Shown here: positions 10,267 through 13,948 of the stretch, piece by piece
How the letters are laid out: every line of letters begins with the position of its first letter
How positions within the stretch are numbered: the first letter of the stretch is position 1
Virus record (IMG/VR): IMGVR_UViG_3300021963_000696
Location: 1 to 22,741 of that record
Strand: one strand, 5' to 3'
DNA length: 22,741 bases
Source: a virus
The notes under the pieces: model-generated
Seen by the model: only the letters and a program-made list of their open reading frames with translations
What the model was told of the DNA's origin: nothing
Databases searched by the model: none
Made by a program: the position numbers and the translations under genes

Positions 10267-10463
10267 AGATTCCAAATCGTCCCTATCAATGCCCATTGGG
10301 GAAAGCACAGCCCACACCAATCAATCTGGATGCAATCAAAAAATCGGGATGGCTAGAACAACACATTCTTGTGATTTCAGATGAAGACGACCGACTTGAT
10401 TTCATCGAGCGAGAGTTCATTCGACGAATTGGTAATCGCTTGTATGGCAAAGGGAGGCCGTGA
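10263..10463 (+). CDS. Small phage protein of unknown function, 66 aa
   Basis: ATG 10263 overlaps the resolvase stop, with ATGGAGG at 10250-10256 as a ribosome site. The product is small, with a proline-rich start (IPNRPYQCPLGKAQPTPINL) followed by an acidic then basic helix (ISDEDDRLDFIEREFIRRIGNRLYGKGRP). No family is recognised. The overlap and preserved ribosome site argue that it is a real coupled gene rather than a chance frame. Confidence 0.65.
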   Translation: MKIPNRPYQCPLGKAQPTPINLDAIKKSGWLEQHILVISDEDDRLDFIEREFIRRIGNRLYGKGRP

Positions 10464-10465
10464 TC

Positions 10466-10861
10466 ATGAGAGTGGAACAGAAGATTTGGACTATCGATGA
10501 TGTGGATAACGAACTGCGACAAGCTGCACGCACCGCGCATCGCTTGCCTCCAGTTCGAGTTGCCGGGTATGTCAGTCGCTGGCCCGTCATCATCAGGACA
10601 GATGGCGAAAAGGTTACCGTTGAGGAACAGAAGCCCTTTCGCATCCCCCCTTCTCCAAAGGATGTGGATCAAATGCTTGAGGCAATGCGGTGGATGCACT
10701 GGCTAGACGTTGAGCAACGCCACCTTCTTTGGATGAGGGCTGAGCGGCATCGATGGTCTGAAATTGCGAAGCGATTTGCTTGCTGTTCTCGAACTGCACA
10801 AAGGCGGTGTGATGCTGCCATGCATCTGATATCGCTCTACCTAAACACGGAGAAAAAGTGA
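10466..10861 (+). CDS. HTH-containing phage protein (DUF6362-like)
   Basis: 131 aa from ATG 10466. AGGGAGG at 10451-10457 gives an 8-base spacing, better than GTG 10460. The N-terminal part (WTIDDVDNELRQAARTAHRLPPVRVAGYVSRWPVI) matches my memory of the DUF6362 family start. The C-terminal part, WMHWLDVEQRHLLWMRAERHRWSEIAKRF followed by SRTAQRRCDAAMHLIS, is an HTH resembling sigma-factor region 4 or terminase-small DNA-binding helices. Such proteins are common at the end of phage early operons and may regulate late genes, but this is not established here. About 180 non-coding bases follow. Confidence 0.75.
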   Translation: MRVEQKIWTIDDVDNELRQAARTAHRLPPVRVAGYVSRWPVIIRTDGEKVTVEEQKPFRIPPSPKDVDQMLEAMRWMHWLDVEQRHLLWMRAERHRWSEIAKRFACCSRTAQRRCDAAMHLISLYLNTEKK

Positions 10862-11043
10862 AATAGACGGGCCTCGAATATGAATGTCGGGGTCTGTCGG
10901 TTTTTGGCGAGATCGCGCTCTCCAAAGGGTGTCGCATTTAGTCCGGAATTCATCTACATTCTGGATACGGTCAGCAAGACCACGCGCTTTTGATTCCCGC
11001 GATAACTCGGGAACTCCTCTCCAAACTTCCCCCCAAATTCCCT
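10862..11043. other. Non-coding gap before the methyltransferase gene
   Basis: No convincing gene in 182 bases. Short dyads are present: TCCGGAAT (10942-10949) with ATTCTGGA (10958-10965), 7 of 8 paired, and TCCCG/CGGGA around 10994-11012. I see no clear promoter and no U-tract terminator. If the methyltransferase gene starts at TTG 10990 the gap is shorter. The region could also be the scar of a lost gene. Confidence 0.4.
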
Positions 11044-12294
11044 ATGAAACCCGAGATCCAAATGGTCCCGGTGGATTCGCTCATCCCGTATGCGCGAAAC
11101 GCCCGCACCCACAGTGAAGAACAAATCGCCCAGATCGCTGCCAGCATTCGTGAGTTCGGTTGGACCAATCCAATCCTGACTGACGGTGACAAAGGTGTGA
11201 TCGCTGGCCACGGTCGTTTGGCTGCAGCTCGAAAGCTTGAATTGACCGAGGTGCCCGTCATTGAATTGGGCCACCTAACTCCCGAGCAGAAGAAGGCCTA
11301 CATCCTGGCCGACAACCGAATTGCACTCAACTCTGGCTGGGACGAGGAGTTGCTTAAGCTCGAATTGCAAGAGCTTCAAGGTGTTGACTTTGACTTGGAC
11401 TTGCTCGGGTTTGGAGATGAAGAAATTGAACGCTTGCTCAATGGAGATGACGCAGGCGGTGGTTTGACCGAAGATGATGCAATCCCAGAAGCACCAGTAG
11501 ATCCAGTATCCAGACCTGGGGATCTGTGGATTCTCGGCAACCACCGCCTCCTCTGCGGGGACTCAACGGTTCTAACGGATGTTGAGCGCCTCATGGACGG
11601 TCAATTGGCAGACATGGCTTTTACCGACCCACCCTACAACGTGGACTATGGCAACAATGCCAAGGACAAGATGCGGGGCAAAGACAGGCGCATCCTGAAC
11701 GATGCGCTGGGTGAAGGGTTCTACCAATTTCTGTACGACGCCTGCGTGAACCTGCTGTTGGTCACTAAGGGCGGATGCTACGTTGCCATGAGCTCTTCGG
11801 AACTGCACACTCTCCAAAAAGCTTGGCTTGATGCAGGTGGCAAGTGGTCCACCTTCATCATCTGGGCCAAGAACACTTTCACATTGGGGAGAGCCGACTA
11901 CCAACGTCAGTACGAACCCATCCTGTATGGCTGGAAGCAAGGCTCTGATCACTTTTGGTGTGGTGACCGGGATCAGTCGGATATCTGGAATTACAACAAG
12001 CCCCGGGTCAATGACTTGCACCCCACGATGAAGCCAGTCGAGCTGGTCGAGCGGGCCATCAAGAACTCATCTAAAACACGGGACATTGTGTTGGATCTGT
12101 TCGGTGGCTCTGGCACCACGCTGATCGCTTGTGAGAAAAACAACCGTCAGGCCCGATTGATGGAACTCGATCCCAAGTTCGTGGATGTGATTGTCAAACG
12201 TTGGGAGGATTACACAGGTAAAAAAGCAGAGCGTGTGCCCAGCGAACAATCTGCAGAAGTCACACTTGGTGACGCCGTCGTTCAGCCCTCATAA
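11044..12294 (+). CDS. ParB-domain DNA methyltransferase (probable N6-adenine, beta class)
   Basis: 416 aa from ATG 11044; a TTG at 10990 is a possible earlier start, but the family usually begins near the MVPVDSLIPYARNAR strand. Residues about 6-100 form a ParB/Srx-like domain with GHGRLAAAR at 55-63. The catalytic domain shows DPPY at 195-198 (motif IV) before DLFGGSGTT at 351-359 (motif I, AdoMet binding). This order is typical of beta-class N6-adenine or N4-cytosine enzymes, and DPPY favours adenine. No restriction partner lies nearby, so it is likely an orphan phage methylase that protects phage DNA or alters host gene expression. The target sequence cannot be read from the protein. Its stop overlaps the next ATG. 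Confidence 0.9.
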   Translation: MKPEIQMVPVDSLIPYARNARTHSEEQIAQIAASIREFGWTNPILTDGDKGVIAGHGRLAAARKLELTEVPVIELGHLTPEQKKAYILADNRIALNSGWDEELLKLELQELQGVDFDLDLLGFGDEEIERLLNGDDAGGGLTEDDAIPEAPVDPVSRPGDLWILGNHRLLCGDSTVLTDVERLMDGQLADMAFTDPPYNVDYGNNAKDKMRGKDRRILNDALGEGFYQFLYDACVNLLLVTKGGCYVAMSSSELHTLQKAWLDAGGKWSTFIIWAKNTFTLGRADYQRQYEPILYGWKQGSDHFWCGDRDQSDIWNYNKPRVNDLHPTMKPVELVERAIKNSSKTRDIVLDLFGGSGTTLIACEKNNRQARLMELDPKFVDVIVKRWEDYTGKKAERVPSEQSAEVTLGDAVVQPS

Positions 12295-12662
12295 TGAGAG
12301 CGATGGAAAACGACCTGCTACAAAGCATCGCCGCCAGAAAGCTCGCCATTAAAAAACGGGACGAGAAGATGTATGCCATGTACCAATGCGGCAGCGACTT
12401 TTCAACGATTGCACGTGCGTTTGATATGACGCGCGAAAATGCAATTAATCGAATCCAGCGTTGGGAACTTGCTATTGCAAAGGCTAATAGCACTAACCCG
12501 TTTGAAAAAGTTTCAGACAGAACTGCAAGGTTGCTACGAGATAACGGCGTGAATACTCCTGAAGCAGTTCAACAGGCTGGCCCCCAAGCACTTCTTCGCA
12601 TCAGGAACTTTGGAACAAAAGCCCTACTTGAAGTTCAGAAATATTTTTTTCATAGCGTTTAG
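12294..12662 (+). CDS. HTH plus RNA polymerase alpha-CTD-like domain protein
   Basis: 122 aa from ATG 12294 (TAATG overlap with the methylase stop; ATG 12303 is an alternative; neither has a strong ribosome site). Residues 36-58 (FSTIARAFDMTRENAINRIQRW) look like sigma-70 region 4 HTH. Residues 69-119 align by eye with the C-terminal domain of the RNA polymerase alpha subunit. R76, N105, G107, K109 and E113 occupy the places of E. coli alpha R265, N294, G296, K298 and E302, which contact UP-element DNA and activators. The places of N268 and S299 are changed (Arg, Ala). Likely a transcription factor acting with or against host RNA polymerase. It is AT-rich (44% GC over 12361-12660, hand count) compared with 52% in the gene before and about 62% after, suggesting separate acquisition. 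It converges with the next gene, sharing 4 bases. Confidence 0.82.
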   Translation: MRAMENDLLQSIAARKLAIKKRDEKMYAMYQCGSDFSTIARAFDMTRENAINRIQRWELAIAKANSTNPFEKVSDRTARLLRDNGVNTPEAVQQAGPQALLRIRNFGTKALLEVQKYFFHSV

Positions 12663-13018
12663 CCCAGCCTGGCAACATAACGTGGGCTATCGCCGCCAGA
12701 CGGATCGATGAACAGGTTTGGACGTCCCGGAGCGCGCACCATCACGCACAAGCGGCCATCCCAGTAATCGCCACCCTTGCCTTTTAGCCAGTCGCGAGAC
12801 TTGCTCAAGTTCAATTTAAAGCCATCGAATTCTTCAGGGTCCATCTCCCGGATCTCGGTCACGTAGACGGCCTCGACACCGCAAGATGCAATGTCGGAGA
12901 TGTCTGTGGGCTTGCGGCCAAAGGGCAGCGGAATGCTGAGTTTTTGAACCTGCAATTCGCGGCCATCAAATTTGATGGTGATGGGCTGGGATTCAATTGT
13001 GATGGTGATGGGGTTCAT
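12659..13018 (-). CDS. Unknown small protein of the reverse-strand cassette, 119 aa
   Basis: Reads leftward from ATG at 13018 with GAGGA about 5 bases upstream; a frame extending to 13183 only overlaps the DUF3489-like gene. The N-terminus (NPITITIESQPITIKFDGRELQVQKLSIPLPFG) is strongly beta-like. The middle reads DISDIASCGVEAVYVTEIREMDPEEFDGFKL, and the C-terminus contains RDWLKGKGGDYWDGRLCVMV and PNLFIDPSGGDSPRYVARLG. No catalytic motif is recognised. It is the last gene of a four-gene leftward unit, and its stop overlaps the stop of the convergent alpha-CTD gene by four bases. No terminator lies between them. Confidence 0.8.
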   Translation of the reverse strand: MNPITITIESQPITIKFDGRELQVQKLSIPLPFGRKPTDISDIASCGVEAVYVTEIREMDPEEFDGFKLNLSKSRDWLKGKGGDYWDGRLCVMVRAPGRPNLFIDPSGGDSPRYVARLG

Positions 13019-13025
13019 ATGGTCC

Positions 13026-13475
13026 TCAAACGGTAGTGGTGATTCGGTAAACGCGGTTTGTGCCGGTCTGTTTTTCTGAAGTGATCTCAAGGCCCAGCTT
13101 TTTCTTGAGTGCGCCCGCCATGACTCCCCTGACGGTATGCACTTGCCATTGAGTGACCTCGACCATCTGAGACAACGTGGCACCTTCCGGTCGCGTGAGC
13201 AATGCGATCAGCGCGGCTTGCTTGGTTCCGTCCCGTTGCTTGGCTGGAGCTGCTGGCTCAGTGCCGATGGACTGTAGGCCTGCGGTGGTGATCGCAAACA
13301 GCGTTGTGCCCTCGGGTGTTTTGCTGTGCGGTGCAATTAGCTCTGCGTTACCTAAGGCCGTAAGCACCTTGATGAGTGCGCCACCTTTGAGGTTGGCTGG
13401 AAAGTCAGCCAACAATTTTTGAGGATGCTTGGCCGCTGCTTGAAGCAGATTGCGTTGGGTGTCCGAGAGTTTCAT
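13026..13475 (-). CDS. DUF3489 family protein
   Basis: 149 aa, leftward. The C-terminal half (SKQ-like KQAALIALLTRPEGATLSQM, then VEVTQWQVHTVRGVMAGALKKKLGLEITSEK, ending RVYRIT) carries the hallmark words of DUF3489: RPEGAT, W-Q-x-HTVRG, GALKKKLGL, SEK, RVYRI. This fold is winged-helix-like and probably binds DNA. The N-terminal half (LSDTQRNLLQAAAKHP..., GTTLFAITTAGLQSIG) looks like a second winged helix. DUF3489 proteins occur in proteobacterial mobile elements, often near recombinases, with no established function. The start overlaps the upstream gene's stop (4 bases, 13472-13475), so the two are coupled. Confidence 0.88.
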   Translation of the reverse strand: MKLSDTQRNLLQAAAKHPQKLLADFPANLKGGALIKVLTALGNAELIAPHSKTPEGTTLFAITTAGLQSIGTEPAAPAKQRDGTKQAALIALLTRPEGATLSQMVEVTQWQVHTVRGVMAGALKKKLGLEITSEKQTGTNRVYRITTTV

Positions 13476-13672
13476 TTCTTTCCTTTCGATGTTGGTGATG
13501 TGTTTTGTGCTGTTGCGATCCCTGCAGCGTAGGCGGCTTCAAGCGCGCTCTTGACCGCCCAGACCGAGACGTCGTGAAAGTCGAGTCGGTCGCGGTGTTG
13601 CGTTTCCAGCGTTTCGATGAACAGGTGCTCAAGGGCGATCTGCTCAATGACTTGTTGTTTGGTTTTGCTCAT
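13472..13672 (-). CDS. DUF6900-like small protein, 66 aa
   Basis: Leftward from ATG at 13672 with AAAGGA upstream on the minus strand; the frame extending to 13945 lacks a comparable site and overruns the next gene. The sequence KQQVIEQIALEHLFIETLET, RDRLDFHDVSVWAVKSALEAAYAAG matches, from memory, the DUF6900 pattern (LETRxSDxLDFHxVSVW...AL..AY.AG). It is a compact helical domain of unknown function. It is the second gene of the leftward cassette, and its stop overlaps the DUF3489-like start. Confidence 0.82.
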   Translation of the reverse strand: MSKTKQQVIEQIALEHLFIETLETQHRDRLDFHDVSVWAVKSALEAAYAAGIATAQNTSPTSKGKK

Positions 13673-13683
13673 GGCGTTTCCTT

Positions 13684-13884
13684 TCATGCGTTGTGGATCT
13701 GTTCGGCTTTTGCAAAGCCCACCCAGTGGCCTTGCTTGTCCAACCCCCGGTTGGCGAGTTCTTTGCAGGCCAGCGCGTTGAGGTCTAGCTCCCCGTTGGC
13801 GACTGCTGCCAGGACCTTGTTCAGTGCGAGCTGGATGAATCCAAGCTCGTCGACAGTGAAGGTGGTATTTGCTTCGGTAGTCAT
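13684..13884 (-). CDS. Unknown small protein heading the reverse-strand cassette, 66 aa
   Basis: Leftward from ATG at 13884 with AGGAG spaced 6 bases upstream on the minus strand. The protein is a helical bundle candidate (FTVDELGFIQLALNKVLAAVANGELDLNALACKELANRGLD) ending in QGHWVGFAKAEQIHNA. No enzymatic motif. Eleven bases separate it from the next gene of the cassette. As first gene it would be transcribed from the divergent region 13885-13989, where an operator-like inverted repeat lies. Confidence 0.78.
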   Translation of the reverse strand: MTTEANTTFTVDELGFIQLALNKVLAAVANGELDLNALACKELANRGLDKQGHWVGFAKAEQIHNA

Positions 13885-13948
13885 TGCGTTCTCCTGTGTG
13901 CGTTGCGATGTAAAGCATTGACGCTCTGAATCGAGATGAAGCCAAGTT

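Follow-up and report, generated by a model that had tools for sequence, protein, structure and literature searches.

A gene at positions 12294-12662 of the window (the whole stretch of DNA that was analyzed, an IMG/VR contig of 22,741 bases) encodes a 122-residue protein, here called P0001, in which an HTH domain is followed by a domain homologous to the C-terminal domain of the RNA polymerase alpha subunit (alphaCTD). The gene occupies a variable slot between two conserved phage modules, and full-length homologues occur in bacterial chromosomes. Based on these results, we conclude that P0001 is probably a small accessory DNA-binding transcription regulator of an HK97-like phage. This reading is supported by the alphaCTD homology, the invariance of the DNA contacts and the presence of both domains in distant homologues as well.

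The contig has the features of a phage genome. Terminase subunits were found by search; after them come open reading frames that, by eye, look like portal, protease and capsid genes of HK97-like type. Terminase relatives (82-86% identity) occur in genomes of the order to which G001, a Gallionellales record, belongs; we take this order to be the Burkholderiales of GTDB. We infer that the contig belongs to an HK97-like phage whose host group is the Burkholderiales. The P0001 gene begins with the ATG at 12294, whose first base is also the last base of the TAA that ends the ParB-methyltransferase gene before it, and its stop codon (12660-12662) overlaps the stop of a convergent leftward gene. The position and length given for this open reading frame by an earlier reading of the sequence alone are right. 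Nearby, at 10460-10861, the contig encodes a DUF6362 protein (PF19889, E 1.4e-32) with an HTH-like C-terminus, a possible phage regulator. The features discussed below are:

10990..12294, plus strand: conserved left flank, a ParB_N and N6_N4 DNA methyltransferase fusion
12230..12660, strand not given: variable cargo slot, with sequence that has no match in related phage loci
12294..12662, plus strand: HTH-alphaCTD protein gene (P0001, 122 aa; full-length homologues known)
12312..12488, plus strand: N-terminal HTH domain, residues 7-65 (AF2 model; weak Pfam matches)
12498..12650, plus strand: alphaCTD-like helix-hairpin-helix domain, residues 69-119 (R76, N105, G107, K109, E113)
12659..13945, minus strand: conserved right flank, a leftward module that includes a DUF3489 protein and is convergent with the HTH-alphaCTD gene

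The sequence-only reading had recognized an alphaCTD in the C-terminal half of P0001, and profile searches and the predicted fold agree with it once homologues are included. P0001 alone matches PF03118 (RNA_pol_A_CTD) with 18.5 bits (E 0.0017), below the cut-off of 23.8, but each of three homologues scanned by itself exceeds it, with 26.9-32.6 bits (best E 6.4e-8), and 10/10 aligned family members match PF03118 at E<=1. A three-sequence family profile has 32 matches in the PDB, nearly all of which, including the first 21, are RpoA (best E 1.4e-4). Similarly, all six weaker, non-family matches at E<=1e-3 in genome scans with the family profile are rpoA, and a profile-profile comparison of the P0001 family with phage alphaCTDs gives a probability of 97.6 (E 2.7e-12). 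Because the homologues pass the cut-off and nearly all PDB matches and the non-family genome matches are RpoA, we regard the alphaCTD assignment, as judged from profiles and a structural model, as firm.

The structural model points the same way. The AF2 model of P0001 (mean pLDDT 89.8) has the helix layout of an HTH (residues 2-31, 36-42 and 47-65) and then that of an alphaCTD-like helix-hairpin-helix fold (residues 69-72, 75-83, 89-101 and 108-118), confirming the two-domain layout that had been proposed. In Foldseek, alphaCTD chains are among the top PDB matches, with probabilities of 0.99-1.00 and rmsd of 1.1-1.8 Å over 48-50 columns; the E-values for this half exceed 0.5, owing to the small size and helical make-up of the domain. 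P0001 could instead be only an HHH_5-type helix-hairpin-helix protein that is unrelated to alphaCTD, as P0001 alone scores 18.6 bits against HHH_5, nearly equal to its score against PF03118. However, the HHH_5 match drops out for the other nine family members whereas the alphaCTD match holds for all ten, and the genome and PDB searches give RpoA rather than other helix-hairpin-helix proteins. We consider this alternative very improbable and largely refuted by the PDB, Pfam and singly scanned homologues.

The pattern of kept and lost residues in the alphaCTD half indicates what the domain might do. Residues were mapped by subtracting 189 from the E. coli RpoA number, with no gaps over the core; at 257-259, the alignment methods differ by one position. 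On this mapping, R265, N294, G296, K298 and E302 of RpoA correspond to R76, N105, G107, K109 and E113 of P0001. These DNA-contact residues are invariant in the 10-member family that includes P0001 and are present in 70-71 of the 71 sequences of an RpoA panel (70 RpoA sequences from fetched loci plus that of E. coli). P0001 thus has in common with the RpoA alphaCTD both the fold and these five residues. It differs from RpoA in the HTH that comes before the domain, in having no alphaNTD (none was found in its 122 residues by any search) and at several other positions. Position 268, Asn in 71/71 panel sequences, is Arg in P0001 and the whole family; C269 is Leu in the P0001 domain; and S299 is kept in the family but replaced by Ala in P0001. 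All family members have Lys at 261, where most RpoA are acidic, a reversal of charge, and residues 285-288 are not kept in P0001, such that the 287 patch is lost. In E. coli RpoA, we take residue 261 to contact sigma, 265 to contact DNA and 287 to contact activators. Of the contacts with DNA and activators that had been suggested earlier, only the DNA set is thus conserved.

Since the DNA-contact residues are invariant and the 261 and 287 patches are lost, the domain resembles a DNA-binding module more than a bridge to RNA polymerase. That is, an alphaCTD-derived domain appears to have kept its grip on DNA and lost its contacts with sigma and activators. The Arg at 268 and the Ala at 299 may alter minor-groove binding. 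Helix-hairpin-helix domains can also bind proteins, or DNA without sequence specificity, and a free alphaCTD is without the alphaNTD tether by which it would join the polymerase.

The HTH half is less specific in its relationships. It has weak matches to the Mor, HTH_7, HTH_28, AsnC and HTH_SB families. The match to the Mor/C family (PF08765) reaches 15.2 bits, below the cut-off of 24.9, covers only 41 residues and is found in 1/10 members. The family phrog_645 ('RNase E') weakly matches the HTH of 10/10 members (best 7e-4), and it also matches in 11/14 control genomes, the behavior of a generic HTH. The sequence-only reading had called this half similar to sigma region 4. The HTH is borne out, but region 4 is not: Sigma70_r4 has no match at E<=1 in any of the 10 members, an N-terminal profile compared with the PDB has no match to a sigma factor, and hhalign against true phage sigma-4 domains gives 43.7% for the HTH half, versus 97.6% for the alphaCTD half. 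We dropped the identification on these profile, PDB and hhalign results, while a relationship to region 4 is conceivable. On sequence comparison, the HTH half is best assigned to no specific family, sigma region 4 included.

These results bear on whether P0001 is directed at the polymerase itself. The sequence-only reading had suggested that P0001 could bridge or compete for host RNA polymerase, with a switch from early to late transcription or a shut-off of host genes as the outcome. Its alphaCTD half would then dock onto activators or sigma region 4, or its HTH would take the place of sigma-4 at -35 elements, and the host polymerase would be steered toward phage promoters or host genes silenced. 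The homology to alphaCTD fits such a role, as does the combination of a true Sigma70_r4 with an alphaCTD in proteins of other phages. However, Lys at 261 where RpoA is mostly acidic, the missing 287 patch, an HTH that is not assignable to sigma-4 and the lack of an alphaNTD all argue against it, and we think that a polymerase-directed factor is unlikely.

Phage proteins that match both Sigma70_r4 and RNA_pol_A_CTD were found at seven loci (L158, L160, L164, L167, L169, L171 and L175). The sigma4-alphaCTD fusion is thus a recurring architecture, and in two of these loci (L158 and L164) it has an extra Cro/C1-type HTH at its N-terminus. Like P0001, the fusions have an HTH and then an alphaCTD in one protein. 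In contrast to P0001, they contain a true sigma-4 domain, a canonical alphaCTD (E 1e-14 to 1e-23) and linkers, and they are 241-322 residues long. Compared with them, P0001 has the alphaCTD but no detected sigma-4 domain. The combination that had been proposed for P0001 from sequence alone therefore does exist in phages, though the searches do not show it in P0001.

Several short phage proteins with an alphaCTD are already present in databases. Examples are gp26 of the Microbacterium phage Mazun (141 aa, 'DNA binding protein'), A0A5Q2WLP1 of the Mycobacterium phage Mithril (149 aa) and the 'RNA polymerase subunit alpha' of the Bacillus phage Goe8 (210 aa). These are likewise small, phage-encoded alphaCTD proteins. 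No full-length homology to P0001 was detected for any of the three, and Pfam detected no HTH in Mazun gp26 or Goe8. We found no functional study of the alphaCTD proteins of Mithril, Mazun or Goe8 and, in the open-access literature, no paper on a phage HTH-alphaCTD protein. P0001 can be viewed as a diverged, minimal case of the phage alphaCTD proteins that are already catalogued, and as a member of a family shared between phages and bacteria.

The P0001 gene fills a variable cargo slot. In relatives, the slot between the methyltransferase and the leftward module ranges from 19 bp (L129) to >1.4 kb of other sequence. In L084, only 41 bp separate the same two flanks, and neither there nor in L129 is there a gene between them. 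About 155 loci that surround related methyltransferase or terminase genes were searched with phmmer and the family profile, and the P0001 gene was found in none of them. Its GC content is 45.5%, almost the lowest of any 369-bp segment of the contig, and the flanking genes have 53% and 54-56%. The low GC that had been noticed earlier is thus confirmed, with corrected figures (44% had been given for the gene, and 52% and 62% for its two sides). Independent acquisition, as had been proposed from composition, is supported by the variable slot, the low GC and the failure to find the gene in about 155 relatives. The alphaCTD is unlikely to have been captured from the rpoA of the host itself, because the best PDB matches of the family profile are to Actinobacteria/Bacteroidetes/Firmicutes-type alphaCTDs and that to E. 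coli is weak (E about 0.4).

Two related loci have HU/IHF-like proteins, identified by eye, in the same slot (L067:2700-3041 and L074:3703-4044). P0001 might likewise bind DNA with no preference for promoters, as a generic nucleoid-type protein or as cargo whose gene is exchangeable with many others. The unrelated small genes that fill the slot in relatives speak for such cargo, as do the low GC of the P0001 gene and the failure to find it in those relatives. The conserved HTH and alphaCTD residues and the linkage of bacterial homologues to hipBA suggest specific regulation instead, and we find a generic role rather improbable.

Full-length homologues of P0001 are present in a Gallionellales genome and in a gammaproteobacterial genome (38% identity, pairwise E 7e-24). 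In the Gallionellaceae group, homologues were found in at least 12 of 158 genomes, although 2 of the 12 matches cover the C-terminal end only. The family was found solely through a degenerate codon scan of genomes for the RNFGxK core, and this distribution is a lower bound. Single-sequence scans with P0001, in the form of 8-residue peptide patterns, gave no relative in viral_contigs or genome_contigs. Likewise, P0001 has no relative among INPHARED phages or PLSDB plasmids (the best phage matches, at E 5-9, are at the level of chance), the family alignment A1 has no match in viral_contigs, and the L251 homologue has none in phages or plasmids. A single phage occurrence, with none at about 155 related loci, might suggest a spurious or decaying open reading frame. 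However, a full-length homologue at 38% identity and residues conserved throughout refute this, and we give it almost no weight. Pairwise omega among the homologues is 0.13-0.42 (pairs with dS>0.3 only), indicative of purifying selection.

The Gallionellaceae gene encodes a full-length homologue of P0001 (36-39% identity), with the same two domains and DNA-contact residues. It differs from the phage gene in its setting, as it lies in chromosomal islands (L251, L311-L321) and by hipBA, not in a phage operon. In 8/10 Gallionellaceae loci, a HipB-HipA-like pair follows it directly on the same strand, and a conserved 74-aa gene usually precedes it. HipA domains were confirmed in L331. A position upstream of hipBA suits a regulator; this linkage belongs to the bacterial homologues only and does not apply in the phage. 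In the islands of L322-L331, the surroundings of the HTH-alphaCTD gene include HipBA-like pairs, repeated HipA paralogues and genes of HU-like proteins. One of them (L331:2562-3857) also encodes a protein with Sigma54_DBD (PF04552, E 5.8e-8) and, by eye, a GIY-YIG-like C-terminus (VYIGSTGDLRKRLGDHL), possibly a sigma-54 DNA-binding domain joined to a nuclease. In the L251:6633 region (G001), a TAG falls inside the match as this extends beyond the stop codon of the homologue, and the gene is not broken when read as an open reading frame.

We postulate that P0001 acts on promoters through both of its domains. The HTH would recognize a specific operator through the major groove, and the alphaCTD-derived domain would grip adjacent AT-rich, UP-element-like DNA through its minor-groove residues. 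P0001 would then occupy the region upstream of the promoter and displace the alphaCTDs of the host polymerase, most likely causing repression; less likely, it would position the polymerase. The analysis establishes the homology, predicted fold, residue pattern and slot, whereas DNA binding, operator recognition and the direction of regulation are inferred. The step of competition for UP elements is tentative, and we give it a low probability when taken alone. There are precedents for phage proteins that act at this level. T7 Gp5.7, also a small phage DNA-binding protein, acts on the phage genome as a repressor of promoters that the host polymerase uses (PMC5569994). The analogy is one of function; Gp5.7 has a winged HTH and no alphaCTD. 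Phage G1 gp67 disrupts the contact between alphaCTD and the UP element, as cited in PMC4495994.

Free-standing alphaCTD domains of phages have been annotated, but we found no functional study of them. P0001 offers a minimal, 122-aa test case, which seems to retain the grip on DNA but not the contacts with polymerase and activators, for the question of whether phages compete for the DNA upstream of promoters with copies of alphaCTD. Through the P0001 family, a phage cargo gene is moreover connected with a bacterial gene beside hipBA toxin-antitoxin-like pairs. We speculate, with considerable reserve, that the family might consist of mobile anti-promoter proteins, in which a captured alphaCTD without sigma and activator contacts would compete for UP elements and the HTH would pick the promoters, with phages and bacterial islands perhaps exchanging members of the family.
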